Under the pieces are notes generated by a model. The model ran no database searches, was not told the origin of the DNA, and was given only the letters and a program-made list of their open reading frames with translations. Positions 28,265 through 55,780 of a stretch of 64,000 nt of DNA are shown piece after piece. This stretch comes from Chlorops oryzae (Eukaryota; Arthropoda; Insecta; Diptera; Chloropidae). The position numbers and the translations under genes were made by a program. Location of the stretch: NCBI GenBank assembly GCA_020466095.1, contig CM035808.1, forward strand, positions 70,328,829 to 70,392,828, written 5' to 3'. How positions within the stretch are numbered: the first letter of the stretch is position 1; every line of letters begins with the position of its first letter.

Positions 28265-29034
28265 TTATTTTTTATTTATTTTATTTTTATTTTTGCCTTT
28301 ATTTAAAAATTGTAAGATTTTATTTAAGATTGTTCGTTGGGTTCTTGAGATTCTTGAAGTGGTTTTTGATGCTTCTTGTATTTGCCAATCTCTGATTATT
28401 TCCGCTAAAAATTCTGTGGATAAGTTCAGTTCTTCTTTGTCAAACAAATTTTGATATGAATTGTAATTATATCTGTTTGCTATGCATTTAAAAAGATTTT
28501 CTGCGAATTTTAAAATAAATAAACCACAATCTATTTGATTTGTTTTTTGCGGACAATTAGGATATACAAGCTCTCTTTTTTGTTAAAAAATATTATTGCT
28601 CGCTATGTGATTGGCAGTTTACAAAAAAAAAATGTAATGTTACTCATTATTTCCTGGATATTATGTGGCTTAAGGGAGTCGAGGATATAGACACGATCTG
28701 AGTGTACTGCCACCAGCATCCAATGGTTGTTTTCGCAAATAGGAAAAACGAAAGTACTAATCGTGTACACATCAATGTCTTTTAGTAAAAGTTTTGTTCT
28801 AATTTTTGCTACTGATGTGTTGGTTGTTTTTTTCGCTGCTTTAATGCTTGCGTAGGCAAATGAACTAAAAAGGTGTACGTTCTTGCGAACTGAAAAGTGC
28901 AAGTCTAGTAGCCAGTTCATGAAAACATTGATATGCACATCGCTCAACCATTGGTTACTACGTAGCCTATTATATTCCTCGTGTGTGATACTAATTGATA
29001 TATTCCCTCCTGCGTGTTTGTACATAAACTCCAT
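28265..29034 (-). pseudogene. ULP1/SENP-like C48 cysteine protease, frameshifted
   Basis: Minus strand. The first frame (29034-28603) has NQWLSDVHINVFMNWL, the entry helix of ULP1 peptidases, then ENNHWMLVAV with the catalytic His and YILDSL with the catalytic Asp. After a frame change near 28590, a second frame has NQIDCGLFILKFAENLF with the oxyanion Gln and catalytic Cys, and continues to the stop at 28265. All catalytic residues are therefore present but in two frames. ULP1-like peptidases cleave ubiquitin-like proteins and also occur in several eukaryotic transposon families. Whether it is transposon cargo or a fragment of a host gene is not determinable here; the transposon setting favours the former. 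Confidence 0.65.
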
Positions 29035-29247
29035 TAGATGAAATGTGTAATGGGGGATAGTAAATCAGTATGAAGTTAACCTTGATTTTGTCTTAGGGTT
29101 CCAAAAAATAATTTTATTTTCTGGCTTTTTTTTTTTTTGTTATGTTTGGGTATAATTACCGTAGCTCCAAAACTTTATTTGCGCCATCTTCTTGCTGACC
29201 CTGAAAAAGAACGAGACTAAAAGAATAATATGAGCCGAGTCCCAACT
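29035..29247. other. Non-coding between ULP1-like ORF and 59-bp repeat
   Basis: No ORF on the minus strand upstream of the protease start; a poly-T run at about 29125-29138. Nothing else recognised. Confidence 0.4.
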
Positions 29248-34836: not shown

Positions 34837-36396
34837 TATGAATAAGATACTCGTAAGAATTCAATGAGGAGAATGTGTTTGTAAGAGGTGTTCAAAATAT
34901 TCGTGACTTTAGACTCGCGAGTTGTTCGTCTCTTGTTCATAACGCTTATGGACTGATTGAATACTGGCTCTTTCCTGTATACCGGGTACTATGTCCTGTT
35001 TTACTTCAACCTTTACGGATTTTCTTTTAAATATTATGCAAACTAATAAAGATTATGAAGAGTGTACCGCTTAAGCCGTATGACATTTTTTGGTGAAACT
35101 GTAATTCTCTTGTGTACGGTCAATTTTTAAAACTGTGAACTACGATATCTTCGAAATTATCGGTTTGTTACTTAAGTTTCCCATTGTATTTTCATGGTAG
35201 AAGTATTTGTCTTCTACTGTTGAAAAACTCTTCATACCCAATCTTTACACTGCAATTCGAAAAAGTAATAAGGGCGTTATTTACAATCGTTTAATTTCGT
35301 TTGTCACACGTCTGCTATACCCGCAAGTTTTTAGCATTTTTTATTATTAATGTCCCCTCATCGACGCATTGAATGAATGTTTTATTATTAAAAATCAAAT
35401 TGAAATTGTTTTGGATAATGCAATGTCGGCTTCGTTTTAATTCCTTTAAAACTGCGGTTTCTTGTTATGTGAAAAGTATGCCATGGATGGAAGTAACGAC
35501 TTCATCGTCGGCCATTATTTCAACAAATTCGTTATTGGGTAATGCTGTGATTAAACTAACCTCTGCCCCTATAAGAGTTTTAGGAACCTTTATTACTATA
35601 AAAATTGAACTGTGTGCATGGGCTAATATTCCTACTCGTATAAACTTCAATTTAAAAAAATCGATTTGAAATTTTTCTATTTCTTCTGAATCTCAAATGC
35701 TGGGAATTATTAATCCATGTCTTGCCGCTGCAATACTATCTTGTATTAGGTTTATTTTCCTTTCTGAAATTTTTAGTTTGAACATTTGATCAATGAACAT
35801 TTCGTGGTTGGTAAGGTTAATATTTTGAATGTTCAATTTATTAAAATTTTGTCTGGCTTGGTCTAAGGCCCTTTTTTAGGCGCCTAGGGTGTCATTAAAG
35901 TGGCTGTTAATTGTTATTTGTTCATTGAGTCCCTCTATTGCATTGTGGCTATTTTCTACCACGGTTGTCAGGTGATTTTATATTTCTTCTCTATCCTGAT
36001 CATCCATAATCCCGAATAAGCACTTATTTGCCGTGCCCACTGCAATTATTAAACCTCTTTTAGAACGCTTCTGTTCAAGCGGTGTTATAGCCTTAAGTTT
36101 CATTCGTATGTGTTTGATATCGTGTGTTAACAAGTATTTGTTGTACATCGGTACCTTATGGATATAATCGTCGATGGAGTCCAACATGCCTGCTATTTCT
36201 TGCGGGTGAGTTATATATAAAATCGTGTATGAGTCCGAAACGATATTTGTATCCCGTAAGTGAATTTCGATGAAGCCCCTATGGTCGGAAATCGGAGTGT
36301 ATATTAAATTTGCTCTAGCCGTTCTGACTAGGAATATTAAAAGTGTTAAAATCTGAAACATGACAAAGGAAAGGTAAGTAGAACTTCCGGTCATTG
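34837..36396 (-). pseudogene. Errantivirus A envelope-like (env) ORF, broken
   Basis: Minus strand. A hydrophobic leader near 36300-36390, then an ectodomain with the conserved SDSYTILYITHPQEI segment, a furin-type cleavage site RSKR at about 36050-36062, and the hydrophobic Gly-rich stretch that follows it in insect errantivirus/baculovirus F-like proteins. Further pieces (for example the frame 35650-35465) correspond to the later ectodomain of element B's env. Stops and frame changes occur repeatedly after about 35978, and the C-terminal third is degraded up to the mariner. In the family this protein mediates fusion and transfer between cells; this copy cannot. Confidence 0.8.
36351..36355 (-). 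promoter_or_regulatory. Probable splice acceptor for errantivirus A env
   Basis: The minus strand has a TTTGTCATGTTTCAG acceptor immediately before the hydrophobic leader, at the position equivalent to the acceptor at 54567 in element B. Confidence 0.55.
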
Positions 36397-36427
36397 TTTA
36401 ATCAATTTGCTGGGTCGTCATTATTTT

Positions 36428-37190
36428 TCTATAAAAGCTTAAAAGTTCTGCCCACTTTGGGCATTCGCAAAGATGATCTCTATCCTGTTAGGCACTCTAA
36501 TGGTAAGTATCTTAGAGCTATTTGTTTCTTTTGTTTTTTATACACATTATTTGTGCACTAACTTCACCTTTCTTCTTTTTTTCTTATTTTTTCAGATGTA
36601 TGAAGGCTTGGTGACCGTGGCTTCGGTGCTCAATGATTACTATGGGTGCGCAGCCATTTCCTCTTTGCTGCGAAAACGGCGCATTTGGCAACGGTGCAAT
36701 TCCTTTTGCTTGCTGGGTAGGCGGTGTCGTACCTGGAGACGACGGTGCCAGGAGTACCATTAAATGGACGACCCGCTTCTACATTTTCATTTTTGGGCCT
36801 ACCTTGGCCCTGCCTATTGGCTGATAGGGACCGTGTTCTCCCCGTTCTTGCCAGTGTCCTAGAATTGGCTCTCCGGGAGGACTACCGGGGTCGTCTGGGG
36901 CATATTCTCGACGCCGTCCATGCGGACTGGATCCAGACGCTCCGGGGGCATGCCAAGGATTACGATGTCCTTCCGGAGGAACGCCTTCACTCTGATGTGG
37001 AATGCACTTCCTCCACGCATCGAGAGAATGCGCTGTCTACCAAGGGGTCCCTTAATTGATGACCTCGATCATGGCAAGCCGTTTTATTTTCCAAAAATCT
37101 TTCGGAGCTGCGCACCCGATCCGAAAGTTGCCTCACCGAACTCGGAACAGACCATATTATATGGTTTTAAACACTTGTCTTTTGGAAAAA
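36428..37190 (+). other. GC-rich segment with gene-like splice signals, unexplained
   Basis: Between PTP and env of errantivirus A lies a stretch unlike its AT-rich surroundings. On the plus strand it has TATAAAAG (36431), an ATG (36474), a GTAAGT donor (36504) and a pyrimidine-rich TTTTTTCAG acceptor (about 36595), then an open frame to about 36763 and another (36724-37059) in a different frame. The minus strand also shows a Pro/Gly-rich frame. I recognise no protein on either strand. Element B has no counterpart. It could be a captured exon, a short unknown element, or a gene fragment. Confidence 0.4.
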
Positions 37191-37393
37191 AAAAATTAAA
37201 TTAAAAATATCTGTAAAAAAAAATTCTCGCTGTGTTATTTTTATTTCAAGGTAGAAGGCAGGCTTTCGATCTATTCATCGGTGGTGTTGTTGCTTTTCTT
37301 TTCAGGCTCCAAAAAATAAAAATCATGACTGCACGGCAAATAACTTTTGACGAAAGTGATTTTGATACTGCGGAACCTTAATGCTTTGTTTTT

Positions 37394-38365
<972 letters not shown>

Positions 38366-38367
<2 letters not shown>

Positions 38368-39623
38368 TGGCGTCGCTAGCATTAAATGCATATTATTTTT
38401 ATATAGTGGCAACCTTCAAATGATTCGTGTCAAAATTTGATGTCTGTAAGTCAATTAGTTTGTGAGATAGAGCGTCTTTTGTGAAGCAACTTTTGTTATT
38501 GTGAAAAAAATGGAAAAAAAGGAATTTCGTGTTTTGATAAAATACTGTTTTCTGAAGGGAAAAAATACAGTGGAAGCAAAAACTTGGCTTGATAATGAGT
38601 TTCCGGACTCTGCCCCAGGAAAATCAACAATAATTGATTGGTATGCAAAATTCAAGCATGGTGAAATGAGCACGGAGAACGGTGAACGCAGTGGACGCCC
38701 GAAAGAGGTGGTTACCGACGAAAACATCAAAAAAATTCACAAAATGATTTTGAATGACCGTAAAATGAAGTTGATCGAGATAGCAGAGGCCTTAACGATA
38801 TCAAAGGAACGTGTTGGTCATATCATTCATCAATATTTGGATATGAAAAAGCTCTGTGCCAAATGGGTGCCGCGCGAGCTCACATTTGACCAAAAACAAC
38901 AACGTGTTGATGATTCTGAGCGGTGTTTGCAGCTGTTAACTCGCAATACACCCGAGTTTTTGCGTCGATATGTGACAATGGATGAAACATGGCTCTATCA
39001 CTACACTCCTGAGTCCAATCGACAGTCGGCTGAGTGGACAGCGATCGGTGAACCGTCTCCGAAGCGTGGAAAGACTCAAAAGTCCGCTGGCAAAGTAATG
39101 GCCTCTGTTTTTTGGGATGGGCATGGAATAATTTTTATCGATTATCTTGAGAAGGGAAAAACCATCAACAGTGACTATTATATGTCGTTATTGGAGCGTT
39201 TGAAGGTCGAAATCGCGGCAAAACGGCCCCATATGAAGAAGAAAAAAGTGTTGTTCCACCAAGACAACGCACCGTGCCACAAGTCATTGAGAACAATGGC
39301 AAAAATTAATGAATTAGGCTTCGAATTGCTTCCCCACCCACCGTTTTCTCCAGATCTGGCCCCCAGCGACTTTTTCTTGTTCTCAGACCTCAAAAGGATG
39401 CTCGCAGGGAAAAAATTTGGCTGCAATGAAGAGGTGATCGCCGAAACTGAGGCCTATTTTGAGGCAAAACCGAAGGAGTACTACCAAAATGGTATCAAAA
39501 AATTGGAAGGTCGTTATAATCGTTGTATCGCTCTTGAAAGGAACTATGTTGAATAATAAAAACGAATTTTGACAAAAAAATGTGTTTTTCTTTGTTAGAC
39601 CGGAAACTTATCAGCCAACCTGT
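38366..39623 (+). mobile_element. Himar1-like (irritans) mariner lacking its left terminal repeat
   Basis: The right inverted repeat is present at 39597-39623 (AGACCGGAAACTTATCAGCC and on to CCTGT), followed by TA. The left end starts at about 38366 inside the element's 5' leader; on its left, host sequence of errantivirus A (plus-strand reading ACGTTAGCTGGAGACGG) abuts it directly. Comparison with element B shows that about 215 bp of host integrase C-terminus is missing at this junction together with the left repeat. Confidence 0.85.
38510..39556 (+). CDS. Himar1-like mariner transposase, 348 aa, intact
   Basis: Starts MEKKEFRVLIKYCFLKGKN, as in Haematobia irritans Himar1, and has the same 348-residue length. 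The catalytic Asp residues are in TMDETWL (about 156), FHQDNAPCHKS (249) and SPDLAPSDFFLF (284), giving DD34D. A few substitutions relative to my memory of Himar1 (for example FSPDL instead of YSPDL) are not obviously disabling. The frame is uninterrupted. Because the left terminal repeat is gone the element itself cannot be excised, but its protein could act in trans on other copies if expressed. Confidence 0.93.
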   Translation: MEKKEFRVLIKYCFLKGKNTVEAKTWLDNEFPDSAPGKSTIIDWYAKFKHGEMSTENGERSGRPKEVVTDENIKKIHKMILNDRKMKLIEIAEALTISKERVGHIIHQYLDMKKLCAKWVPRELTFDQKQQRVDDSERCLQLLTRNTPEFLRRYVTMDETWLYHYTPESNRQSAEWTAIGEPSPKRGKTQKSAGKVMASVFWDGHGIIFIDYLEKGKTINSDYYMSLLERLKVEIAAKRPHMKKKKVLFHQDNAPCHKSLRTMAKINELGFELLPHPPFSPDLAPSDFFLFSDLKRMLAGKKFGCNEEVIAETEAYFEAKPKEYYQNGIKKLEGRYNRCIALERNYVE

Positions 39624-39625
39624 TA

Positions 39626-40380
39626 TAAATTATACAAGGGATCTGGTTTATGTTTTAATTTTATTGGAATCTCGAATTCAAAGCCGAAAAGAGTTCTACT
39701 GGGAGTTTTTGTGGACGAATGTACCGTGTTGTTATGCACGTGCATAGCATGATGCAGCCATTTGTCCCAATTTGTTCCATCTTCATTCACAAAATTTCGA
39801 AGGAATTCTGCAAGAGGCCGGTGGCTTCTTTTGAGTGCACCATTGGCCTGCGGGTGGTATGGCGAAGTTTGCGATTTTTTAATACCAAGAATTTTGCAAA
39901 TCTCTAAATAGGACGGATGTGAAGTTTGTGCCATTGTCGGTTACTAATACTTTAGGGATATTAAATTTGGAAATTATTTCATTGAAAAAGGCTGACACGC
40001 ATATATGTAATTCTTGATCTGTCTTTGCATCCCTTCCCACTTACACTGTTTTCTGATTTGGAAATATGTTTTCAAAAATCCCTTATGGTCTCCTATTGGA
40101 GTGTCATGAAAAACCTTTAATATTCTCTGAATGTCTTGTATGTCGGTAATGAATACCGCTGTGTCTTCGCTGTCTGAACTGCTATTATCTGCTATGTCAA
40201 TTTCTATTGGTTCTTCTGCTACTATGTCCTGTCCTACTCGTGATTTTGATCTTGTAATAACCGTTTTTTTATTTTCCTCGGCCGGAAGCCTTCTTAATGC
40301 GTCCGCGTTTAGATTATTTTTACCCGGTTTATAAAAAATTTCAAAATCATATTCTAAAAGTTTTAAACGAAATCGGCCAA
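39626..40380 (-). pseudogene. Errantivirus A integrase, internally deleted
   Basis: The first part (about 40330-40030) has the HHCC-finger histidines (HDTPIG-HKG). The sequence then jumps near 40000 to the second catalytic Asp region (VTDNGTNFTS, about 39935-39965) and the PYHPQANGALKRSHRP block, in which the usual catalytic Glu reads Lys. The Cys pair of the finger and the first catalytic Asp are deleted, about 60 codons by comparison with element B. The C-terminus is cut at 39626 by the Himar1-like insertion. Confidence 0.8.
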
Positions 40381-42390
40381 GCCTGGTGTCCTGGTCCTTT
40401 AATTTGCTATTCCCTTTAGTAGTTTGTAATCTGTGTATATTTTAAAGTGATTTCCCAAAAGATACGTTCTAAAATTTTTAACTGCCCATACTTTTGCCAA
40501 AAATTCCTTTTCTATGGTGAAATAACGTCTTTCTGTTGCGCTAAGTGCTCTGCTAGCGTAGTATATTGGCAGGTCTTGTCCCTGCTCTCCTTGAGAGACT
40601 AATGCCCCCAAAGCTTCGTTACTGGCGTCTGTAGTTAAAATGAAAGTTTTATTGAATTAGGGATATTGCAATATTGATGGACTTGTTGCTGCATGTTTCA
40701 GTCTGTCCATTGCATCTTGGCATCCGTCACTCCATACAAACTTTTGTTCCTTTCTCAATAGTTAAGTTAGTGGCAAAGTAATCTCTGCGGCTTTTGGGAT
40801 GAATTTTCTATAATAATTAATTAGGCCAAGGAACGCCTGTAACTGTTTAATATTATTCGGTGGCTGTATGTTTTTAACGCATTCTACTTTGGAAGGATCG
40901 GGTAGAACACCCGTCCCTGAGCATTTGTGGCCTAAATATACTACTTTTTTCTTCAAAAATTGGCATTTTTCCGTCTGCAATTTTAAATTATTAGCCCTCA
41001 GTACTTTTAATACTTTTCTTAATCGTGTCTCATGCGATTCTAAATTTTTTCGCATTGACGACAATGTCATCCAGGTATACGAAGCAATATATTCCCTGCA
41101 AACCGGTTAAAATACTATTTATTTTGCGTTGAAAAGTGGCTGGCGCTCCCGTCAACCCGAATGGCATCCTTTCAAATTTAAAATGGCTCATACCCGTACT
41201 AAATGCCGTTTTTTCCCTATCCTTGCCGTCAACTAACACTTGGTGATAGCAACTAGCTAAGTCTAAAGTGAAAAAATAACGACTGTAGCCTAGCTAATCA
41301 AGAATTTCATCAATTCGTGGGATTGGAAAAACTTGTTTAATAGTTATTTCGTTCAGTTTTCTAAAATCCACAACCAACCTCCATTTTTTATTTCCATCTT
41401 TATCTTCCTTCCTTGGGACCGAAATTATGGGTGAATTCCAAGGCGACTTGCTTGGCCTAATCACACCGTCTGCAAACAGTCTCTCAACTTGCTCATTTAT
41501 TTCCTTTTTATGTTTTTCTGGTAATCTATATTGTCTCGTATTTATTGGCGGATGCCCTAGTTCCTTGGGGATTTCATGTTTTAAGACCGTTGTGTAGGAT
41601 TGTTTGTCTCCACTTAAATGGAAGACGTCTGAATATTTTGAAAAAAAATTTATCATAGAATTTCTTTCCTCGTCGTTCAGATTTTTATCCAAATTAACCA
41701 TTTCTAATAACATTTTCCGACGATTTTTTTTTTCATTTTCTTCTAAATAATTTATGTTAGGGGACTTTGGTTCTTCGAAACTTGTCGTCTCTTCTTCGTC
41801 TAGTTCAATGGCTGTGCCTATGTTAACCGTACTGTTTTCTGTATTTAAAATGGGTATATATCCTTTCTTATTATAAATTTTTGTTACGGTTCCTCCCACA
41901 AATACATTTGTGATAATCTCCTTTTTATTTATTACGACATCTCCTGACAGACCCTTTCCATAAATTTCCACTATCATTGCTTCCCTAGCGTTGATCGTCA
42001 CTGCTATTGCAATACAAATCATTCTGCTGTCGGTACTAACAAGTGAAAGACGTGCAATTTCTCTTCTCTTGTTGTAAAATATGACTTCCTTTGTGATTTG
42101 ATTTACTATGGCTCCAATTCCAATTGTGTCCAATTGTGAGTTTTCAGAATTTGCCAATTTTACTTTGAACACACCCTCCGAACGCTCCTGTAAACTTTCT
42201 ACTGTCTGACTGATCAATAGTATAGTGTGATTTTAATGTTTCTATCTTAACTTAACATGTGTCAGCACCAGTGTCCACCAACAAGGTACCCTTTTCATTT
42301 ATAGCTTGTCCACAGGGAAATACTACAAATGTGTCGTCTGATAATGACTGCGAACCTTCAATGTTTAGTGGTGATTCATTGCTACTACCT
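40380..42390 (-). pseudogene. Errantivirus A protease, RT and RNase H, broken
   Basis: Minus strand. Protease motif LLVDTGADTC at about 42255-42285. The long frame 42217-41294 carries the pre-RT region and RT fingers (WNSPIISVPRKEDKDG, WRLVVDFRKLN). The next frame has RMPFGLTGAPATFQR and the catalytic CFVYLDDIVV (about 41055-41085). Then the thumb (PDPSKVECVKNIQPPNNIKQ) and RNase H (YYASRALSATERRY, IYTDYKLLKG). Frame changes occur near 41260, 41040 and 40650, with stops between. Sequence is closely related to element B but clearly a different lineage. Confidence 0.85.
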
Positions 42391-43303: not shown

Positions 43304-45480
43304 GTGGCTAAGGAGCTAGATTCATTTAAAGAGAAGTTGAAAGTTTACGAAAGCGATTCAAAAACAATTTTAGAAGAAGCAAGGGAACTAGTAAGAGAAG
43401 CGAACCGCGGAAAGGAAGTGTCAAGTCTTATAAGGGATCAAACGGTATTAGGACAATTTTCGAAGCTTGGGGAAGCTATATTTTACATCAATCAGGTCAA
43501 GGATACAGTAAGTGCATCAGCGCAGGCCACGCAAGAACGAATAAGCCTATTAGAAAATACAATAGAGTTAGGTACACGGGATTGTAAAAAATTGAGAGGG
43601 CTAATTGAGGAACAAAATAGTTTGATAGACGAGGCCGAAAAGGATAATCAAGATCTTAGAGATTCATTAAATAGAGCAGTTGGTAAACACATAGCGCAAT
43701 CTTTAGAAAAGGACAAAACTTGATTAAAAGAGAGCGAGAAGGAGGTAAAAGTCTTAAAACAAGACATAAGGAAACTAAAAACAGCATTAAAAAACGTTTG
43801 CGACACTAAATCTCCAAGTCCTAACCCAGGGCGTAAAATCAGAACAACGAGCACGAACACTGAAAATCTAGCGTTTTCAACCCAGAACGTTATGCCTCTT
43901 AAGGGAACTGCAAATCTTTTAACACCCACTAATCTTAAATTGCCAACAATCAGTATAAACATGCCCCATACACCACAGATAGATGAATTGATTGAAAAGG
44001 TCAATCGAATAGTACCGTACTTCTCAGGATCAAATAATCAAGAATTAGGACTGGAGGTTGATAGGTTTATCACAGCAATTGAGTTGCTGAAGAGTGTAGT
44101 GGGTAGCTTCAACATAATAGACATCATAAAGTGCAGTAAGATCAGACTATCAGGCGTGGCTTATATGAAGGTAAGCCAAAGGACAATTAACAGCTTAGAC
44201 GAACTTTGCGATTTAATGAAAGGAGAGTTTTTAAAAACACGAACCCTTGAAACTGTTAGATCTGAAATAGCAAGCGCAGAACAACAGAATGGCGAGAGGG
44301 CTTCAACATTTGGAGGCAGATTAGAATTTTAACTAAATGAAGCAGAGGCTTTAATTTATTAATCATGGAATAATGCGGAGGCATTGTCGGCGCTGAGCGA
44401 ATATAGAAAGCTGGCAACCAACAAATTCGTTTTCGGTGTGAAAGGCCCTTACATGCAGAATAGACTTGAAAGTTCAAGAGACAAACCAATTGCAGTTTTG
44501 ATAAATTAACAAAAGATTCAGAAAACCTTCATGAGGAAAACGGAAGAAGGAATGATTTCACAAACAAAACATCCCCAGCAGGAAAACAAGTTATACACTG
44601 TTCGTTTTGTTACTTAGAGGGTCATACTTGGGATATGTGCGCACAAAGGAAAAATGCGCCTTTTTGCACCAATTGTGCAATATATGGGCATCAATTTGGC
44701 GCTCAATGCAATAAGATTGTTAAGGCCTTGAGTCCAAATGCGGAAATATGCACACATTGCGGAAAGAGGGGTCACTCAGAGGTAAAAGGTTTTAATAAAA
44801 TGAAAACCTTGTTTTGCAATATTTGTAGGATAAATAATCATTTGAGCACACCCTTTTGTAAAAAGAAACTCGAAAACAATAATTCAAAATCGAATCAGTG
44901 GCAAAATACAGAACTATTTAACAAGAACGGAGAGGGATATTTTGATAGAAACAGAGCAGGGAATTTTAACTCCTACAGCCCCCTAATTCTAATAGTGGAA
45001 CAGAAAATACTAACAGAGGAGGAGACACAGGAACCAGGCCTCCAACTAACAGGGACGTGCAATGCTATAAATGCTCTGAAGTGGGCCATATGCCCAAATA
45101 TTGCCCTAATCCACCTCAACAGGCAAGGTTCAATGAGGGAAACTACCAAAGGCCCGGTCTCGGCCAATAGACCGGAATGCCACAACGAAAAAGGATTATA
45201 GCAGGCCAGGTTTAGTTCTAGGTGTAAAGACAGACGAAGAAAAAGTAAATGAAAAAAGAGATAGTTACGAATTAGAAGAGCTAGACATTAATAAAATATA
45301 TCTAGATGATGTGGAGGCCACCCAAATGAACATTAACGGTAAAAATATAGAGAGAGATAAAAATACAACATGCATAGAAAAGGCAGGAATACACAGTAAT
45401 AAGGAGTTTTTGGTGAGAAATATTCATAATAAAAACCAAAAGGTTGTACGTTTCAATGACGAGTAAGTATTCCATTTTGA
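43304..45480 (+). pseudogene. Errantivirus B gag with five zinc knuckles, broken
   Basis: The first frame (from about 43304, where the expected ATG reads GTG; element A has ATG) is a long coiled coil. A TGA at about 43722 interrupts it. The capsid-like part (43892-44332) includes PTLNPKLP-like and VNRIVPYFSGSNNQELGLEV segments. Four CCHC-like knuckles follow at 44590-44880 (HCSFCYLEGHTWDMC, FCTNCAIYGHQFGAQC, ICTHCGKRGHSE, FCNICRINNH) and a fifth near 45060 (CYKCSEVGHMPKYC). Frames change at about 44335, 44510 and 45050. Gag forms the particle and the knuckles bind RNA. Confidence 0.8.
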
Positions 45481-45560: not shown

Positions 45561-46169
45561 ATGTTTGGTTTTATTTTTATCTTTGTGTTACATATCTTCG
45601 CAATTTTAAAGGAATATTTTTTTATTTGGAGCAATGAAATGAGTAAATGGTGTAAGAGCCAACACAAAAACCCCTTCAGGAACATAATTAGAAATAGCAC
45701 CCAAACTTTTAATACACAATGTTCAAGTTCAGTGTCAGAAGACGCGTTTATAGTATTTCCTAGTGGACAAGCTATAAACAAGGAGCTTAGCCTGTTAGTG
45801 GACACTGTTGCAGACCCAAGTTTGATTAAATGGGAGGCACTAAAAAATGCAAAGGAGGTAAATGAATTGGAAACGAAAAGTTTAGTAGGAGCCTTCGGGG
45901 GCCATACGCAGAGTAAGGGAATAGTAGAAATAGGACATTCCGATATTAAGGAGTTAAAATTTAAATTTCATGTTTTACCCAAAGGAAAAAAAATTCCAGG
46001 AGATGGACTAATAGGCAGAGATGAGCTCTGGAATAAGTCCTTGATAGACAACATTAATAAAAATATTTCGTTTTTTAAAATGGGAAGAAAAATAGTTTCA
46101 CTACTACTTGTATGTTCTACCAGCAGTAGGGTTTGTATTGCAAAAACAGTCACAATCCAAGCTAGATAA
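45561..46169 (+). pseudogene. Errantivirus B aspartic protease, active site altered
   Basis: The frame contains FIVFPSGQAINKELSLLVDTVADPSL (split here by position: LLVDTVADP at about 45795-45820). The catalytic D-T-G reads D-T-V, a change expected to abolish activity; element A keeps DTGAD at this place. The second lobe (DGLIGRDELWNKSLI) is recognisable. The N-terminal part of the ORF is the Gag-Pro linker. Confidence 0.75.
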
Positions 46170-46184
46170 ACAAGGATAGAAGAA

Positions 46185-46952
46185 ATGCGGGCAAGAAATA
46201 TGTCAGGAGACGTTATAATAAGTAAAAGAGAAATTATGCCAAATGTGTTTGTTGGAAGCACGCTGACTAATATTATTAATGAGAAAGGTTATGTGCCAAT
46301 TTTAAATACAAGAAATAGTGCAATGAAAATAGACCCCAGAATTGAGTTGGAGGGGGAGGCGATGAGACATTTTGAGGAGTTGAGCATACCAAATATAAAG
46401 TTTTTGAGGGAAGGAGAGGAAGAATGTAAGCGTTTGCAGGCCTTACTAGAAACGGTTAATTTAGATAAAACCCTTAACGAAGATGAAATAAATTCGATGT
46501 TAAAAATTTTTAGGGAATATTCAGACGTTTTTCACCCATCCCACGAATTGATGAAATTTTAGACCAATTAGGCTATAGCCGTTATTTTTCAACGTTAGAC
46601 TTAGTTAGCGGCTACCACTAGGTGCTAGTAGACGGCAAGGATAGCGAGAAAACAGCTTTTAGCACAAACATGGGCCATTTTGAATTAAAAAGGATGCCAT
46701 TTGGGTTTACAGGGGCGCCAGCTACTTTTCAACGCATTATGAACACCATATTAACAGGGCTACAAGGAATTGATTGTTTTGTGTATCTTGACGACATTGT
46801 AATTTATGCCAGAAATTTACAATCACATGAAGCACGGCTGAGAAAAGTATAAGAAGTATTAAGGGCCAATTATTTAAAATTGCAGACAGAAAAATGCCAA
46901 CTCCTAAAAAGGGAAGTTGTATATTTAGGCCATAAATGCTCAGAGTCTGGCG
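46185..46952 (+). pseudogene. Errantivirus B reverse transcriptase, N-terminal part
   Basis: The pre-RT region (46185-46562) matches that of element A. The fingers with the VVDFRKLN-type motif are deleted at about 46545; palm motifs RMPFGFTGAPATFQR and FVYLDDIVIYAR (46692-46815) are present. A stop lies at 46850. The coding sequence stops at TA 46953-46954 where the pogo-like element is inserted, and continues at 49671. Confidence 0.82.
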
Positions 46953-47340
46953 TAGGGAAGGTCGTGTACCTTGGACCGTTTTTGAAGAAATGGTTTGTGG
47001 TGTCTAAACGAAGGCCTGATTTGTTTACCTGACACCTTCACATTATCAACTGATATCTTAGCTTTTGTGAAACGTTAATAAAACGCCCATATTTTCAGTC
47101 AAATCAGAGTATTAAACATTTATTGTCAGAAACTCAAAACGGTCCAAGGAACAAGCAGGCCTTGTACCTTGGACCATACAGTACTGTTCCTTGGACCATA
47201 AGAAAAAAAATAGTGTTAAAGGTTACATAAAAGGAAAATAAAAAGCTTTCACGCTGAAGTAGAATGTGTTAAGAGTCGCATATTGCAAAATTAATTAAGA
47301 AAATTAAATATATTCTTCAATATTATAAATAAATGATGAG

Positions 47341-49190
47341 TTAGCGGCGTTTGGATCCGCACATCTTTAATATTTCATCAATTGAAAAGTCGCTGTCAGC
47401 ACTGAAATCTGAGTTTTCGTTTTGCGGAATCCGTGAAGTCTTAGAAGCATCTTTTGATTTCCGAAATAAACTCTGCCTAGGCATTGGTAACGAGATTTCA
47501 CCGTTTGAGGACGAGTCCGAGCTGTGTAACGGAATTATTTTTTTCACAGTCTTCAGTTTCTTTGATTGCGGTTTGATTCTGGGTTGTTTTTTTTTCTTTT
47601 GCTGGAGCTCCTTTTTTTCTGGACTGTCAGTCAATATTCGGGTTTTTCCTTTCTGTCTTCCAGCTCTGATATTTTTCCGATTACCTGCCTTTGGATATGG
47701 ACGTATTATATGTAGCGGTGTTAGTTCAGTCGATTCCATTGTAACTGAAGAAAATATGCTATTGTGACTATAGTACAACGTAATATTATCTACCTACCTT
47801 TTGTCCCCGATGAACTTGAGAATATTTCATTCCTTTGCAGTTGTATTGGAGATGAAGCGTTAGACTGGAATGTTGTTATGGATTGTTGTACTGGAGATGG
47901 AGCGTTAGAGGTAGAATGATTTACAGACGGACTTTCTGGTGCAGTTATGTGCTCAACGGGACGATCTGTAACATATGCAGATAGATATTCGTCTTCTGTA
48001 AAAATATTTTCGTTTAGGGGAAAGATTCCGGACACTTCAAATCCCTTTACAATATTCTGTGTGCTGAATGATAAGTTATATGATTTGCCAATTATTTCAG
48101 CAATGTCGTAAATAGTAATTGGTTTGCCTGGATTGTTAAACATCCAATCATTGGCAGCAGTGTTATAAAACTTTTTATATGGTCCAAAAACAGATCTATC
48201 TAGTGGTTGAAGCTTATGTGATGTGTGAGGCGGCATAGTCAAGAGAACAACACCATTATTTTTAGCGGCATCAATTAGTGGAAGCGAAATGTGACTTTCA
48301 TGATTGTCCATTATTAAGAGAACCATGTCCTGAGTTGACGGTTTGACATGCTCAATGAAGTGTTCAAAATATTTAAGAAACATCTCCTCGTTAACCCAAC
48401 CTGATGGAGTTGCTGCGCCAATAGACCCTGAAGGAGCGCCTTTTAACATATGATCCTTGAAATGAACTCGAGGGAAGATTAGCATCGGAGGTACATGGTT
48501 ACCAATAGCATTAACTGCAGCAATCATAGTTACATTAGAACCACGTTCTCCTGATGTCATGCTGCCTATCTGCTTGTCTCCTTTAGACGCAAGAACTTTC
48601 GGGGGAACATGAACAGTCGAATTTCCTGTTTCATCCACATTATAAATTTGGTTCGGAGAAAACGGATAACGGGCAAAACATTCCTTCAAGTTTTTAAAAA
48701 AGTCTTCAACATTTTTTTTATTAAAGCTAGTCGATCTTGACATGCTAGTGGCTTCAGGTTTTCGCAATGATATGGTTGCATTTCTTTTCAAAAATCCTTT
48801 TAACCACTCCTTGCCAGCAGCCCCGTTATCAACCCATGTTTGAGGAAAGGTTTTATTGTTTTTTTCAGCAAACTGATACGCAAGTTTCATTGCCTCTTTT
48901 CTGGACAGACCGTAATGCAATTTTGCAGCGGTTTTTATATAGTTAGCCAACATTGCCTCCTCTTCAATACTAAATACCTTTTTATGTTTTAGTTTCGACT
49001 GATATATAAAATCTGTGCTTCCACAAGATCGATGGTTAGCCAAATGACGTAACAAGGTTGTTTTGGGAATATTGTGTTTTTTTGCAGCAAAGCCTACGCT
49101 ACTTCCACCTTGCAAGACTTCATTAACTGCCGAAGACAACTTATTTTCATTGATTGGCTTTCGTTGTTTCCCATTTTTACTTCGGGGCAT
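47341..49190 (-). CDS. pogo-like transposase, two exons (49190-47798, 47744-47341)
   Basis: 598 aa. CENP-B/psq-type helix-turn-helix at the N-terminus (AAKKHNIPKTTLLRHL, residues 35-50), a CENP-B middle region, then DDE_1 with YNVDETGN (Asp near 186), LIMDNHESH (near 295) and QPLDRSVFGPYK (near 331), a DD35D triad. A 53-bp intron has a GT donor after 47798 and ends in TTCTTCAG before 47744. The C-terminal exon is basic, then acidic/serine-rich (SDSSSNGEI, NSDFSADSDFSIDEI), ending KMCGSKRR. No disabling mutation seen. Cut-and-paste transposase acting at TA. Confidence 0.88.
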
Positions 49191-49230
49191 TATTCTATAT
49201 TAAAAATGTAGGATTTATTAACAAAGATTT

Positions 49231-49302: not shown

Positions 49303-49672
49303 ACGTGAATCACAAAATTTACAAAACAATAAAAATATTCTTTGTCCTTCAAAGTGACAAGTTCTTATGCTTATCATTTTAAAGAAGACGCTTTACCTTT
49401 ATTTCACTGTTACACCACACACAGTACAGTAACTCAATTTAATAAAACTTGATTGGAAAAGTCAGCGAAAATATTTACTAAAGACGTGAAATTTCTGTCT
49501 TTGCTTCTTGCCGGTTCGTCTTCAACTAATCGAACCCAACTACAGGGTTGATAATATCGGAGTCAAAAATGCAACAAATCGTAGTGGAACACTTTTCTGT
49601 TATCAGCTGGGAACAGTGAAATATTGCAATTGGTCCAAGGTACAATCGGTCCAAGGAACACGACTTTCCCTA

Positions 49673-51300
49673 CTACCCGACCCATCCAAGGTAGAGTGCG
49701 TAAAAAATATAAAATCTCCACATAATATAAAGCAATTACAAGCGTTTTTAGGATTAATTAATTATTACAGAAAATTCATACCCAAGGCCGCAGAAATTTC
49801 GCTACCACTAACTAAACTATTGAGAAAGGAGGAAAAATTTATATGGAGTAAAGAGTGCCAGAAGTCAAAAGACACGCTTAAACAAGCAGTGATCAATCCC
49901 CCGATTCTACAATATCCTGACTTCACAAATACTTTTAATTTAACCACCGATGCAAGCAATGAAGCTTTGGCCGCACTCCTTCCCAAGGAGAACAAGGACA
50001 AGACCTTCCAATTTATTACGCGAGTAGAGCGCTTAGCGCAGCAGAAAGGCGCTACTCCACAATAGAGAGAGATTTTTTGGCTATAGTATGGGCGGTAAAA
50101 AACTTTAGAACTTACCTCTTAGGAAATCGTTTCAAAATTTATACAGATCATAAACCTCTTAAGGGGATAGCGAATTTAAAGGATCAAGACACCAGATTAG
50201 GCAGATTTCGTTTAAAACTTATAGAATATGATTTTGAAATTATTTATAAACCGGGGAAAACGAATCTAAATGCAGATGCATTAAGTAGACTTCCAGCCGA
50301 AAAAAATAAAATATCAGTGGTCACGAGATCAAAGTCAAGAACAGAGAATGACATAGTGGCAGAAGAGCCGACAGATAACAAATCACCTACCGAAGCTGAC
50401 AACGAAGACACAGCAGTCGTTCTTACAGATCCGTACGAATTTCAGAAGGTATTAAAAGTTCTTCACGATACACCAATAGGAGGCCATAAAGGTTTTCTAA
50501 AAACATATTTCCTTATAAGAAACCAATTTAAGTGGGAAGGAATGCAAAGACAAATTAAAAATTACATAAATGCCTGCAAGCTTTGCCAAAAGAATAAAAG
50601 TTCCCGTGTGGAAAAAATGCCTATGGCTATAACCGATACCCCTCATAGGCCATTTGATAAAGTGTTCATGGATATAGCGGGTCCCCTACCAATCTTGTCA
50701 ACAGGAAATAAATACATAGTAACATATTTAGATGAATTTTCAAAATACTTCATATGTACTGTCATTCCAGATGCAGAGGCAGCTACAGTAGCTAGAGCAT
50801 TTTTTAACGAAATAATAGCAAAATTCAATATTCCAAAAGCTCTAGTAACAGACAATGGTACTAACTTCACCTCGGTATTATTGAAAGAGGTTTGCAAACT
50901 CCTTAGAATTAAAAAATCGCAAACTTCTCCATACCACCCGCACGCCAACGGTGCTCTCGAAAGAAGCCACCGACCCCTTAGCGAAATTTCTTCGAAACTT
51001 TGTCATTGAAGACGGCACCAATTGGGATGAATGGCTGCATCACGCAATGCACGTTCATAACAATACCATTCATTCATCCACTTAACAAACACCCTGTAGA
51101 ACACTTTGGTTTTGATTTTGAAATTCCCGTTAAATTAAAGCACAAACCAAGCCCACTGTATAATTCGGACGATTACAGCAAGATTTTGAAATATCAAATC
51201 CAAAGAAGTCACGAAATAGTAAGAAATAATCAAAAGAAATCAAAAGAAATATCTAAGCAATATAATAATAAAAAGACTAAAAACAAAAATTTTTGAATAG
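49673..51300 (+). pseudogene. Errantivirus B RT thumb, RNase H and integrase
   Basis: Thumb (LPDPSKVECVKNIKSPHN) from 49676, RNase H with LTTDASNEALAALLPKE and a frame change at about 50010, then the long frame 50077-51009. This has ENDO-like IYTDHKPLKGIANL, the integrase finger (HDTPIGGHKG, CKLCQKN) and catalytic Asp residues in FMDIAGPLP and VTDNGTNFTS; the HPHANGALERSHRP block contains the Glu. A frame change near 50995 enters a frame running through the C-terminal GPY module into PTP, interrupted by TGA near 51296 and TAA near 51345. Confidence 0.85.
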
Positions 51301-51359
51301 GTGAGAAAGTTTGGGTTAAGAATCAAAACAAACAAAATAAATTTTAAGCGATTTGGGAA

Positions 51360-52354
51360 GGGCCCTATGAGGTCATCTCCACTCCCACTCCAAGTAATGT
51401 CAGATTGCGCATTAAAGGAAAGGAAAAAACGTTCCATAAGGAATTGCTCAAACAATTTAGAGATAAAACTGAAAAAAATTGTGCCGTCGAAAATAATAAG
51501 TCAGGTTCAGAAGCAGCAAGTTCGCAAAATTTAATAGAAACAAAAAACCTGGAGGATCGAATAAGAGAATTCAAGGCATTAAAAGAACAAATATTTAAAG
51601 ATAAAAATGCTTCTTTCCTTACAAACAAATCAAAAAACCGATATACAAATATCTCATGCTTAGAATATAATCGAGTTAAGCTTGCTTCACCTTCGAATTA
51701 CATTCATGCAAATTTCGTTGATGGTTTTCGCAAAGAGAAAGAATATATTGCAACATAGGGTCCACTTTAAAATACACTAGTCGAATTTTGGCAGATGGTT
51801 TGGGAACAGAATTGCTACAATATAGTGATGTTAACTAAAGTTAAAGAAAATGGTATAGAAAAGTGTGTCCAATATTGGGGAAAAGAAGAAGACAATTGCA
51901 TTTCACTAAAAGAGTTCAAAATACAAATTTAAAAAGTGATTAGGACCGATTATAACGTTCGCACAAAGCTTAGAATACAACATTTTAAAACTGGACAGAC
52001 TTAAATAATATTTCACTGTCAATTTTTAAATTGGCCTGATTTCGGCACACCCGATCTTAAAGATTTACTAACATTTTGGCATAGAGTTAAAAGCAATCAA
52101 AATTCAGTAGCAAAAGCAAATGAAATTTTCCCAATAATCATTCATTGCAGTGCCGGGATTGGCAGAACAGGTACAATGATAGCAATAGCTATTGGTCTTT
52201 CGAAGGTTCGTTCAGGAGTAAAAGTAGATTTAAATGAAATAGTGGAAAAAATTCGCGAACACCGAGCGTGTGCTATTAGTTGCACGGAGGCATACACGTT
52301 TGTCTATGACGTTTTGGAATACCACGCCAAAAGAAATTTCTCAGTAATTATTTA
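51360..52354 (+). pseudogene. Protein tyrosine phosphatase domain fused to errantivirus B Pol
   Basis: One reading frame runs from the integrase GPYEVIS module (51360) through a linker of about 80 codons into a classical PTP domain of about 240 codons ending at a stop at 52352-52354. Motifs: NKSKNRYTNI and NYIHANFV (51625-51720), EYIAT then GPL (a stop, TAG at 51756, replaces the Gln), QMVWEQN and IVMLTKVKENG (51790-51855), WPDFGTPD (52032-52055, with the general acid Asp), and P-loop HCSAGIGRTGT (52143-52175). The Q-loop Gln is not conserved (ISCTEAY). Four nonsense codons (51756, 51771, about 51930 and 52002) but no frameshift. It is placed between integrase and env, in the same position as in element A. 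Role unknown; tyrosine dephosphorylation of host signalling proteins is the family activity. Confidence 0.87.
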
Positions 52355-52403
52355 AAGTCAGATTTTTCCACTTCAAGATTTAAAATTAGTAGAATTTATA
52401 CTA

Positions 52404-53697
52404 TTAGGTGTAGTAAAAAGAAAATTCCATTATTTTTCCAATAGATGCGTTATTTATCTGCATCTCGCGTTGTATAAGTCCGATCGTGTTCCGCTAGGGG
52501 GCATTAGAAAGATGACAGTTCCTACTAAAAAAGCTTTTTTGACACTTTTTTGATTGATTGATTCAGTTTTGTTTGAGAGCTTGTCAAAGATGGACATCAA
52601 CAAAGAGAAAAATTCGCTACATTTTACAGTTTATTCTTCGATAAGGGAGAAAAACGCAAGCCAGGCGGCTGAAAATGTGAATAGCGTTTATGGACCTGAT
52701 ACTGTAACAGCCAATCATGCGCAATTTTGGTTTCGTCGATTCCGTTCCGGTAAACTTCGATGTCAAGGATGCTCCACGCACTGGAAGGCCAATTGTCGAA
52801 AATGTCGATAAAATCATGGAAATTATCGAGTCCGACCGTCATGTTAGCACTGTTTCGATTGCAAAAGAGCTAAAGATTGCACAAAAAACCGTTTGGAACC
52901 ATTTGAATAAGGCTGGATACACAAAGAAGCTCGATGTATGGGTGCCACACGAGTTAACGCAAAAAAACCTCATAGACCGAATTTCCATCTGCGAATCGCT
53001 GCTGAACCGCAACAAAATCGACCCATTTCTGAAGCGGTTGGTGACTGGTGATGAAAATTGGGTCACTTACGACAACGTCAAGCGAAAACGGTCGTGGTCG
53101 AAACACGGTGAACCGGCGGAAACGGTGGCCAAGCCAGGATTGACGGCCAGGAAGGTTTTGCTGTGTGTTTGGTGGGATTGGCAGGGAATTATCTACTATG
53201 AGCTGCTCCCATACGGCAAAACTCTTAACTCGGAACTCTACTGTCAACAATTGGACCGTCTGAAGGAAGCAATCGCCCATAAGCGGCCAGCTTTGGCCAA
53301 TAGGAGAGGAATTGTGTTCCATTAGGACAACGCCAGGCCACACACATCGATAGTGACTCGCCAGAAGCTCCGGGAGTTTGGTTGGGAGGTTCTTCTGCAT
53401 CCACCTTATAGTCCGGACCTGGCACCAAGTGATTACCATCTGTTCCTGTCCATGGCGAACAATTTTGCTGGTGAAAACATTCGCTTCAAGAGAGGCTTCT
53501 GAAATTCGACTGTCTCAATTTTTTGCTAATAGGAACGAGGGCTTCTATGAGAGAGGCATAATGAAATTACCTTTAAAATGGCAACAAGTTATCGAACAAA
53601 ACGGCGCATATTTGACCTAAATCGGGTCATTCTAACTATCTTAAATAAAGCCCTCAATTTAATGCAAAAATAATGGATTTCTTTTTACTACACCTAA
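52404..53697 (+). mobile_element. mariner element, copy 3 (inactive)
   Basis: 1294 bp with both TTAGGTGTAGTAAAAAG termini, TA at 52402-52403 and 53698-53699. Inserted 50 bp after the PTP stop codon. Confidence 0.95.
52590..53620 (+). pseudogene. mariner transposase, copy 3, frameshifted and with nonsense
   Basis: Same protein as the other two copies. Frame changes lie near 52620-52650, near 52750 and near 53490. A TAG replaces the Gln codon in the catalytic HQDN motif (about 53323). The catalytic TGDEKW reads TGDENW. Non-functional. Confidence 0.92.
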
Positions 53698-53699
53698 TA

Positions 53700-54567
53700 A
53701 ATTAGAAACAACATAGACATATTTATTCACCCGAGCATATTTCCTACAGAGCAATTCCATTTCGTCTCAAAGGCAGTGTAGAGACAAATCCCAAACATAA
53801 ATTAAGAAACTGAAAATTAAAACGTTATGAGAATAAATCACAGTGATACCGAAAATGTTTGAAAGCCTTTCTTCGACGATGGTATCCAGAAAAAAAAAAC
53901 CAACTTCAAGTCAACACCTAAAAAGAAATCGCTTTACTCCGAAATATTCACACATTATACACACTTACTAGGAAAAAGAGAAGAAAACCTCAAACGCATT
54001 TTAGATGGCCAATGCCCAGGGAAGCGCCGAAGCGGTTGCCGGAGGAAATAACAAAACACTCCAAAGTAAAAGCTTCGACGCATTCCGGAGTAAAAAACAC
54101 TTTTATTCAAAACCTGAATTTATATTTTTCAAATTTAGAGCACTTTTCACAGCACATTTAAAATTCACCGAACACAAAATAGTGAGAAAATTTCGAAAAT
54201 TTAAATTTTAAAATATTTCTCATTCACAAACACAAGTTATCTGCTCAAAATCTTTAATAAAACTGTTCTACTCCGATCGTAGAAAGCTTACGAAGCAAAA
54301 AAGAAACACAAGCGATAAGAAAAGCAAAAGAAAAACAATTCGACTCCCAAGCGAGCCCAACAAAGACAAACACTGAAATTCTACACTCCAAGCCACTCCA
54401 AGCTAAAAGGGCTGATCATAAAATATAAACAAACAAGATTCTAAATGGGTTGATCAAGAAGTTCGGGGACACATGTTATAAACAGTTTTTTCAAATCGAT
54501 TCTTGTGTATTTGAAATACAGTGTCATTATAATAACCAGAACGATAACAAAAATTTATTTTTTTCAG
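53700..54567 (+). other. Pre-env region of errantivirus B with splice acceptor
   Basis: No conserved ORF; a 68-codon frame at 54005-54211 (GSAEAVAGGNN) is not recognised. A T-rich tract ending TTTTTTTCAG at 54567 is a convincing splice acceptor directly before the env coding region. Confidence 0.6.
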
Positions 54568-55780
54568 ACACTACTCGCGATAGCGTGGTGCATCGTAGCG
54601 GCATAGGGTAGCTTCATCATATCCCCCGTCACCGAGCAAAAGGGTTTTGTCGAAATTCACTTGCGCCACACAAATATTGTGTCGGATTCATATACAATCT
54701 TATATATAATTCACCCACAAGAAATAGCAAGTATACTAGATTCAATGAAAAACTTTATAACTGAATCAGAAATACATAGCAAAGACTTATTATTCAACGA
54801 AATTAATCATATTCGGGTAAAACTTAAGACAATCGCACCGTTCGAACAGAAGCGCCAGAAAAGGGGATTAATTAATGCAGTCGGTACGGCCACTAAATGG
54901 TTATTCGGAGTTATGGAAGACAATGACAGGCAGGAAATAGAGAGCCATCTCAAAGTAGTGGTAGAAAATAGTCACAATGCGATCGGGGGGCTCAACGAAC
55001 AGATAGTAATAAATAATCATTTGAATGAGACACTAGGAAATATACGGAAAGGAATATACCAAGATAGACAATTTTTAAACAAGTTAGATAAGACCAATAT
55101 CAACATATCAAATAACCTAATGTTCAACGAACAAATGTATAAACTAAAGTGCATTGAAAACAAAATAAACATTATACAGGATAGTATTGCGGCAGCCAAA
55201 AATGGATTAATGCATCCCAGTATCCTCACCATGAAGAAATAGAAAAGTTCGAAATTTATTTCTTTAAATTGAAATTTATGCGAACAGGCATATTGTCTTA
55301 TGCACAGAATTCAATCATAATAGTAATTAAAGTTCCCAAGACTCTTATTACGACAGAGATTAGTTTAATTACGGCAATTCCCAATAGCCAGTATTTTGAG
55401 ATAATGGCAGATGACGAAGAAATAAAGTCAATAAATGACACAATATTCATATACAAAGAAATGCAATTTTGAAAGCATTAAAACGAAGTCTCCTTTGCGT
55501 TATACAAAAAATTGCAACTCTATTTAAAACAACAAAACGAATGTCCAATACTTTGATGAAGGGACGCTTATAGTAAAAAATGCTAGGGGTTTAAGTTTAG
55601 TTCAAACGTGCGACAAAAGCAAGCTCACTTTAGAACATAACGCGCTTATCACCTTTTCGAATTGTACTATAACAAGTTAAGAAGTTTACATCGGCAAAGC
55701 CGATTGCACACATACCTTTTTTCAGCCTAAAATATGTTAAAACATTACCTAAACGAAAATTTCTGCCGTTTTCGTTGTTC
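54568..55780 (+). pseudogene. Errantivirus B envelope-like (env) ORF, broken
   Basis: A short hydrophobic leader after the acceptor is interrupted by TAG at about 54605. The main frame 54661-55242 has SDSYTILYIIHPQEIAS, the cleavage site RQKR at about 54848-54860 and the following hydrophobic segment, then a heptad-like helical region. A second frame (55269-55472) and fragments to about 55780 continue the ectodomain (GTLIVKNARGLSLVQTCDKS). The C-terminal membrane anchor is not clearly preserved. Same architecture as element A's env and insect baculovirus F-like fusion proteins. Inactive. Confidence 0.8.

Follow-up and report, generated by a model that had tools for sequence, protein, structure and literature searches.

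A tyrosine phosphatase domain fused in frame behind the integrase of an env-bearing Ty3/gypsy lineage in Chlorops oryzae

Introduction

When a retroelement integrase reads on into a tyrosine phosphatase, has a lineage of retroelements acquired a cellular enzyme as part of its Pol protein, and if so, what would that enzyme be for? The question is raised by a 64,000-nucleotide stretch of the genome of the fly Chlorops oryzae (assembly GCA_020466095.1, contig CM035808.1, forward-strand positions 70,328,829 to 70,392,828; hereafter the window), in which a first-pass annotation made from the sequence alone had described a protein tyrosine phosphatase (PTP) domain joined to the end of an errantivirus Pol. 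The reading we favour, with a probability of roughly 0.6, is that the lineage acquired a PTP, joined it behind its integrase and keeps it active in the particle or the cell, where it would mainly serve the intracellular cycle.

The fused frame and its element

The frame in question spans 336 positions on the + strand (51348–52355), opening in the GPY module of the integrase (WEGPYEV), passing through a linker into the PTP domain and ending at a stop after it. In accordance with the first-pass annotation, whose coordinates were correct, this is one frame carrying the motifs KNRY, WPDFGTPD and HCSAGIGRTG, and it has suffered nonsense changes without frameshifts (four internal stops and zero frameshifts). 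The profile search suggested at that time bears out the domain assignment: among the pieces between stops, PF00102 (Y_phosphatase) matches the N-terminal one with an E-value of 1.8e-11 and the C-terminal one with 8.5e-25, and the 33-residue middle piece has no Pfam match. Pfam finds RNase H, H2C2 and rve in the upstream piece 49963–51006 and nothing in the piece 50982–51293; Pol 5′ of position 51348 contains frame changes, with tblastn match pieces joining at about 50985 and 51109. Downstream, at 54607–55239, Baculo_F passes its cut-off and Gypsy falls short of its own. The element was assembled from open reading frames (ORFs), profiles and translated matches as follows.

43724..45466, + strand: decayed gag region (ORFs), with a CCHC-pattern knuckle within 44970–45170
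45738..46954, + strand: protease and reverse transcriptase part of Pol (tblastn with the PTP-less relative P0242)
47790..49199, − strand: pogo/Tigger-like transposon (ORF; DDE_1 and HTH_psq), a later insertion that breaks Pol and is foreign to the element
49667..51464, + strand: RNase H, integrase zinc finger, integrase core and GPY/F module (Pfam, tblastn), with the frame changes near 50985 and 51109
51348..52355, + strand: the reported frame of GPY module, linker and PTP
51624..52316, + strand: PTP domain (Pfam, tblastn), 54.5% identical to the PTP of genomic copy L011
52394..53714, + strand: mariner (PF01359) just 3′ of the PTP stop, a later insertion foreign to the element
54562..55671, + strand: env, baculovirus F-like, in a broken frame (Pfam; tblastn pieces)

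No long terminal repeats (LTRs) of this copy were found in the 64-kb window. A 248-bp repeat at 42456 and 56648 was considered for that part and dismissed, as it occurs a third time near 7600–7800.

Copies elsewhere in the genome and in other data sets

We searched the genome (442 Mb in three large contigs) with PF00102 and obtained 596 candidate places, of which the best ∼150 were scored, a few host genes among them. Among the best 150 of the 596, 134 have no stop within the match; 46 of these stop-free matches lie in open frames of at least 900 residues, including the host-like locus L001, and 31 in open frames of at least 1500 residues. Twenty-eight loci from this list were read: 24 are retroelements (L003–L026) and four resemble host genes (L001, L002, L027 and L028). 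L001 has two PTP domains and fn3 repeats, and its neighbour in the PTP tree is a Megaselia scalaris PTP, a combination of domains and tree position that suits the name Lar.

The search for intact copies that the first-pass annotation had called for was successful, in that integrase is joined to PTP in other places and an uninterrupted frame runs from RNase H/integrase into the PTP in 17 of the 24 retroelement loci. In L022 the terminal residues are altered, though the integrase–PTP frame is unbroken. Since the loci were drawn from the top of the PTP search and partly chosen for long frames, the share of 17/24 should not be extrapolated to the family at large; the fused PTP is probably present in many more of the 150 scored matches than the 24 copies read.

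For 18 copies the upstream stretch was fetched as well and LTR pairs were sought. Nine of the 18 have such pairs, at 98.8–100% identity: no mismatches were counted in L009 (0/650), L016 (0/500) and L025 (0/499), one each in L013 (1/543) and L014 (1/497), three each in L017 (3/508) and L018 (3/839), two in L023 (2/754), and two plus four gap columns in 513 in L022. Target-site duplications of 4 bp flank eight of the nine (L018 after a one-base shift; the site of L023 is ambiguous), and the integrase–PTP frame is open in eight of the nine, the exception being L025, which changes frame within RNase H/integrase. In the stretches fetched, no LTR pair was found for L011, L012, L015, L019, L020, L021 and L024, where the 3′ LTR of env-bearing copies may lie beyond the end; L026 gave only a 162-bp partial LTR match and L010 a long duplication instead of a full pair. 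We take the element family to be recently active.

In L010 (upstream stretch L038), 3 kb of upstream DNA are repeated downstream at 99%, and part of the integrase–PTP region is present twice, so that this locus would appear to be a duplicated or nested copy.

The fusion is also found in two other data sets. P0241 is a 1622-residue Pol on a 7035-base JGI contig with RVP, RVT, RNase H, H2C2, rve and PF00102, and P0002 is a 362-residue protein on a 1312-base ENA contig that consists of GPY module and PTP. P0241 was the one fusion among the best 120 of at least 7982 scored matches when the query included the integrase, and a search with the PTP region returned no retroelement domain among the best 120 of at least 7984 scored matches.

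These copies decide whether the fusion is merely a host pseudogene or an assembly artefact lying beside a retroelement, for which the decayed state of the window copy would speak. As 17 of 24 copies elsewhere, at different loci, keep one uninterrupted frame, the window fusion is no pseudogene accident; the target-site duplications in eight of the nine LTR-paired copies and the two outside fusions likewise contradict that explanation, which we reject as having a negligible chance of being right. Two outcomes that the first-pass annotation had named as fatal to its proposal, a lack of other integrase–PTP copies and a near-exact match to a host gene, did not occur: the best cellular match is at 45% among the matches listed, the host PTPN9 gene being unlocated.

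Origin of the phosphatase domain

A tree of 86 PTP domains chosen from the matches listed places 13 retroelement PTPs of this genome together with P0002 in one clade (support 97/85). This clade stands in an open fork (83/87) with nematode PTPs and with PTPs that we label braco-type (P0022 from Cotesia glomerata, P0024, P0026 and P0034), and PTPN9-like domains adjoin (92/97 for the whole). The comparison with host and bracovirus PTPs proposed earlier thus recovers the retroelement clade, and places it beside the braco-type PTPs in the open fork of 83/87. The source was apparently a cellular-type PTP, with PTPN9/MEG2-like domains as its neighbours in the tree.

P0241 is long-branched in the PTP tree, and a single clade of all retroelement PTPs is not rejected (approximately unbiased test, p 0.5). 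In an integrase tree of 52 rows, the PTP-less P0242 groups within the clade that unites the nine own-genome rows used, and P0241 lies outside it. The data weakly reject a single clade of all PTP-bearers (p 0.04) but not one made up of the own-genome bearers (p 0.47). Loss of the PTP, its exchange or a second capture has probably taken place at least once.

Active site and selection

The retroelement PTPs score above the PF00102 gathering score and have the PTP fold. Across the 22 retroelement rows of the alignment, the Cys and Arg of the P-loop signature HCx5R are kept in every row, as is the Asp of the WPD loop (22/22), in the form WPD, with WAD in the L014 family and WKD in P0241. By profile, catalytic residues and fold, the domain is predicted to be a classical (class I, PF00102) protein tyrosine phosphatase. 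A pseudophosphatase was first suspected when a strict motif search missed 12 of the 24 copies; the alignment showed Cys and Arg intact in all. The set of Cys, Arg and Asp is retained by all 24 copies and by the two fusions of the other data sets.

A related possibility is that the domain acts as a phosphotyrosine trap in at least some subfamilies. It could draw on the P-loop variants (HCAAGIGRTC, HCMAGVGRTG and HCSAGINRTC), on WAD in the L014 family and on the lack of the Q-loop glutamine in some subfamilies (see below). The invariance of Cys, Arg and Asp over 22 rows contradicts it, since the bracovirus candidates for such traps, as given in PMC3573978, have lost Cys or Asp, and we consider a trap quite unlikely.

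Selection was estimated per domain on 15 of the 24 copies, with L025 left out for its broken integrase frame, as the ratio of nonsynonymous to synonymous substitution rates (dN/dS). Within subfamilies the ratio is 0.12–0.30 for the PTP where computable, 0.08–0.26 for the integrase and 0.12–2.39 for the linker. Pooled over six close pairs, the PTP gives 0.26 (Fisher p 3e-8), and two disjoint pairs of the L014 family give 0.23 (p 1.3e-5), both with sites treated as independent. The dN/dS comparison envisaged in the first-pass annotation therefore indicates purifying selection on the PTP. Comparisons between subfamilies show dS saturation in most cases and a dN of 0.21–0.60 for the PTP versus 0.08–0.20 for the integrase (0.05 for the L011/L015 integrase).

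These values bear on whether the PTP is a passenger, fused by accident and retained merely as the end of the Pol frame. The existence of PTP-less sister Pols (P0242–P0249) would allow for this; the dN/dS of 0.26 (p 3e-8) would not, and subfamilies separated by saturated dS still hold Cys, Arg and Asp. We reject the passenger explanation as highly improbable on the ratio and the retained residues.

One comparison suggests that the 3′ half of the elements is mobile between subfamilies. In consecutive windows of 150 columns, L011 and L015 are 76–91% identical as far as ∼350 bases short of the PTP; identity drops to 73% in the window that follows and to 53–69% beyond, a fall from ∼87% that takes place some 350–200 bases ahead of the PTP start. 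Their dS is 0.74 in the integrase and saturated in the PTP. The fall in identity together with the two dS values makes recombination that swapped the 3′ half near the integrase–PTP junction the simplest reading.

An antisense reading frame and a Ulp1-like protease gene

Further genes lie behind the PTP in many copies. Matches to env occur in 13 of the 24 loci (a remnant in L018; in L024 a further stretch behind the second PTP piece). Between the PTP stop and env, an antisense ORF of ∼185–200 residues is the sole stop-free frame of the span in all five subfamilies examined.

L015:2884-3474, − strand: antisense ORF
L021:2943-3542, − strand: antisense ORF
L005:2484-3080, − strand: antisense ORF
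L020:2880-3461, − strand: antisense ORF
L011:3487-4071, − strand: antisense ORF

The encoded proteins are 54% identical between L015 and L021, ∼41% between L015 and L005, 32% between L015 and L020, and 31% (97 residues) between L015 and L011. At the DNA level, blastn at 1e-5 finds no match of the PTP–env gap among these five subfamilies; short matches of 39–52 bases link L012 to L014 and L017. Translated matches between L015 and L021 reach 3e-51 for the antisense frames versus 2e-25 for the sense frames. Pooled dN/dS of the antisense ORF over three close pairs is 0.21 (p 4e-5), with 0.47 for L019/L020 alone, and L019 has one stop inside the span used. On the antisense strand, the ORF begins at a pyrimidine tract ending in AG in L015, L012, L021 and L005, and in L019/L020 the tract lies ∼30 bases further upstream, so that the start looks like a splice acceptor. 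Matches to the ORF occur in 11 of the 24 loci, all of them also env-positive; env without it is seen in L018 (the remnant) and L026.

No relative of the antisense protein emerged from the searches made: Pfam gave below-cut-off matches only, in one of five proteins; PDB sequences gave nothing under E 0.88; a scan of IMG/VR with the antisense alignment gave no confirmed relative; and a low-confidence structural model (predicted local distance difference test, pLDDT, 59) had no match in PDB or BFVD at E ≤ 0.001, an absence that does not in itself establish a new fold. A second IMG/VR scan, made with a piece of the integrase, also yielded no confirmed relative.

A further gene, located between env and the 3′ LTR, is by profile and catalytic set a putative Ulp1/SENP protease (family C48, PF02902). 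Seven of nine downstream ORFs scanned match PF02902 (E 6.5e-11 to 2.1e-20); the exceptions are L021, with no match, and L012, whose ORF is a mariner transposase. The His-Asp-Gln-Cys set (NHW, LDS/MDS, QQ and DCG) is kept in eight of eight rows. Matches occur in 11 of the 24 loci, L023 holding a remnant, and absence from L003–L006 is meaningless because the fetched stretch ends inside env there. Pooled dN/dS over three close pairs is 0.42 (p 0.001); one of these pairs, L007/L009, differs by five replacement and no silent changes. Representative positions are given below.

L015:5696-6601, + strand: C48 gene
L019:5660-6526, + strand: C48 gene
L009:3127-4014, + strand: C48 gene
L026:1197-2030, − strand: C48 gene

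Other copies are reduced. In L013, L014, L016, L017, L022 and L025, whose 3′ LTR lies within the fetched stretch, no antisense ORF, env or C48 gene was detected at 1e-4, a threshold that a highly diverged gene could escape. The PTP frame is open in these reduced copies, L025 being broken upstream in the RNase H/integrase region.

Classification of the lineage

Is this an errantivirus, as the first-pass annotation had it? The lineage has the Pol order of Ty3/gypsy elements, LTRs with 4-bp duplications and an F-like env downstream of pol. Errantiviruses duplicate 4 bp of target, and the named members (gypsy, ZAM, 17.6 and 297) share with it the Pol order, the F-like env (Baculo_F) and that duplication size. 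The name is nevertheless not supported in its strict sense. The GPY/F motif is kept, as WEGPYEV in the window frame and as GPY or GPF in P0241 and P0242. A CCHC pattern is present in frames of at least 250 residues in 11 of the 18 upstream stretches, as well as in the window, and of two stretches scanned Pfam zf-CCHC is over its cut-off in L054 and not in L042. The integrase is split from that of four gypsy-like elements of the same genome with support 100/100 and branches of 3.58 and 2.29, in a tree that holds no Drosophila reference. Errantiviruses, as PMC2577118 describes them, have lost GPY/F and have a Gag without CCHC arrays. The retained GPY/F, the CCHC-type Gag knuckles and the distant integrase are why we place the element in an env-bearing Ty3/gypsy lineage that would lie outside the strict errantiviruses, from which it also differs by the PTP behind the integrase, the antisense ORF and the C48 gene. 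In eight gypsy-like env loci of the same genome (L029–L036), queries with the PTP, the antisense ORF and C48 found no match, and there env stands close behind integrase wherever both are readable.

Proposed role of the phosphatase

The claim that a retroelement lineage acquired a PTP as part of Pol is upheld by the 17 of 24 unbroken frames, the retained catalytic residues, the purifying selection and the young LTR pairs. We propose that an env-bearing Ty3/gypsy lineage captured a cellular-type PTP and that this domain came to follow the GPY module of the integrase in the same frame, giving Pol a C-terminal phosphatase. Judged by its active-site residues and dN/dS, this phosphatase would be catalytically competent. 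Because it is part of Pol, it would be expected in the particle, packaged with reverse transcriptase and integrase, and it might be cut off by the element protease or left on the integrase. It could then dephosphorylate a tyrosine-phosphorylated protein of the cell or the element, upon which replication or integration would proceed. Fuller copies add the antisense ORF and the Ulp1/SENP-like protease, a putative counterpart directed at SUMO- or ubiquitin-like tags. Taken together, this suggests that the elements interfere with host-cell signalling.

Since the PTP is open and selected in young copies in which env, antisense ORF and protease gene were not detected, it probably serves mainly the intracellular cycle and not only cell-to-cell spread; its persistence without detectable env would speak for that cycle no less than for infection, during which, in the first-pass annotation, the enzyme might alter host signalling.

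The main rival, by analogy with polydnaviruses, is that the PTP suppresses host immunity or signalling during cell-to-cell spread, serving the env-bearing infectious form. Of the viral models that come nearest in fold, polydnavirus PTPs form a prominent part, beside those of giant viruses, and the retroelement PTP evolves fast between subfamilies. In PMC3573978, polydnavirus PTPs are described as having episodes of positive selection and are tied to immune suppression, and expression of a PTP of Microplitis demolitor bracovirus reduced phagocytosis by S2 cells. Set against these similarities are the PTP frame that stays open in copies where neither env nor an antisense ORF nor a C48 gene was detected, and the purifying selection in the L014 family; moreover, bracovirus PTPs include catalytically dead forms according to the same source, whereas Cys, Arg and Asp persist in each of the 22 rows here. 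We regard this suppressor role as unlikely, though the least unlikely of the competing explanations.

The location of the domain raises a further alternative, that the PTP fold serves to bind phosphotyrosine carried by chromatin or import factors and thereby guides integration, much as chromodomains do in chromoviruses, with catalysis being secondary. The PTP sits directly behind the GPY module, which is the place of the chromodomain in chromoviruses; chromodomain-containing Ty3/gypsy elements are named in PMC2577118. Pure binding would not require the Asp that serves as general acid or the Cys and Arg of the P-loop, all of which are kept, and such a targeting or tethering domain seems to us improbable, somewhat more so than the suppressor.

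Several observations weigh against the intracellular, catalytic role that we prefer. PTP-less relatives (P0242–P0249) exist, and the retention of the PTP in the copies read is partly a matter of sampling, given a PTP search and a choice of long frames. L019, L020 and L026 lack the Q-loop glutamine, which is displaced in L018/L021, and subfamilies without it may be weak enzymes. The PTPs of L019 and L020 differ by five replacement and no silent changes. The L014 family is recently related, so that its selection signal consists of few events, and the 3′ end of L024, which was used there, is unresolved, with a second copy close behind. Finally, the PTP evolves faster than the integrase between subfamilies, a pattern that would suit an arms race no less than a housekeeping role.

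Comparison with known systems

A limited literature search found no earlier report of a fusion of PTP to a retroelement Pol, and we know of no retroelement Pol that carries a host-type signalling enzyme. Chromoviruses carry a captured cellular-type domain, the chromodomain, behind the integrase at the end of Pol; theirs is a chromatin reader and this one a tyrosine phosphatase. The ptp of baculoviruses encodes a different type of phosphatase. PTPN9 (PTP-MEG2) is ∼35% identical over the aligned fold, and the retroelement protein has the catalytic domain only, fused to integrase. Bracovirus and ichnovirus PTPs share with it a single insect-virus PTP domain of similar fold; they are separate genes of DNA viruses, of which, according to PMC3573978, only a subset is active, unlike the Pol-fused domain with Cys, Arg and Asp in all rows examined. 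The ptp of Autographa californica multiple nucleopolyhedrovirus is likewise a captured insect phosphatase that acts on the host, as PMC3471939 reports, and differs in being a separate gene of a DNA virus.

As for the antisense ORF, complex retroviruses offer a parallel. HBZ of human T-cell leukaemia virus 1 is a protein-coding antisense gene; like it, the present ORF lies toward the 3′ half of the provirus and is probably spliced. It differs in lying between pol and env, and no relation appeared in the sequence and fold searches made.

We think it somewhat more probable than its opposite that these elements form an undescribed clade of complex insect endogenous retroviruses, with gag, a pol–phosphatase, env, a spliced antisense gene, a Ulp1-like gene and a 3′ cassette exchanged by recombination. 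If true, invertebrates would have a complex-retrovirus gene set directed at two of the host's systems of protein modification, one based on tyrosine phosphate and the other on SUMO or ubiquitin-like tags, the antisense ORF and Ulp1-like gene carrying the complex-retrovirus plan beyond vertebrates, and the cassette traded between subfamilies would begin near the integrase–PTP junction. The fusion makes testable whether tyrosine phosphorylation restricts or licenses the replication of insect retroelements, and the reduced PTP-only copies separate an intracellular from an infectious role.

A second element and other features of the window

The window holds a second decayed PTP-bearing element of the same lineage, absent from the first-pass annotation, on the minus strand at 35042–42338.

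39629..42338, − strand: Pol from protease to integrase (tblastn)
37415..38110, − strand: PTP, 49% identical to the L021 PTP (tblastn)
36593..37164, + strand: antisense ORF in a broken frame (translated matches)
35042..36385, − strand: env (tblastn)
28304..29088, − strand: fragment of a Ulp1-like (C48) protease gene, 61% and 54% identical in two pieces to the L019 gene (sequence match); it lies outside the span of the second element and is not assigned to either element

The second element is interrupted by another mariner-type element (ORF 38471–39556; type judged by eye). Three mariners in the window (26676–27974, 33529–34843 and 52394–53714) are 98–99% alike. A duplicated stretch at 13204–14702 and 23681–25179, 98.5% identical, adjoins and overlaps tandem repeats with an offset of ∼117 bases.
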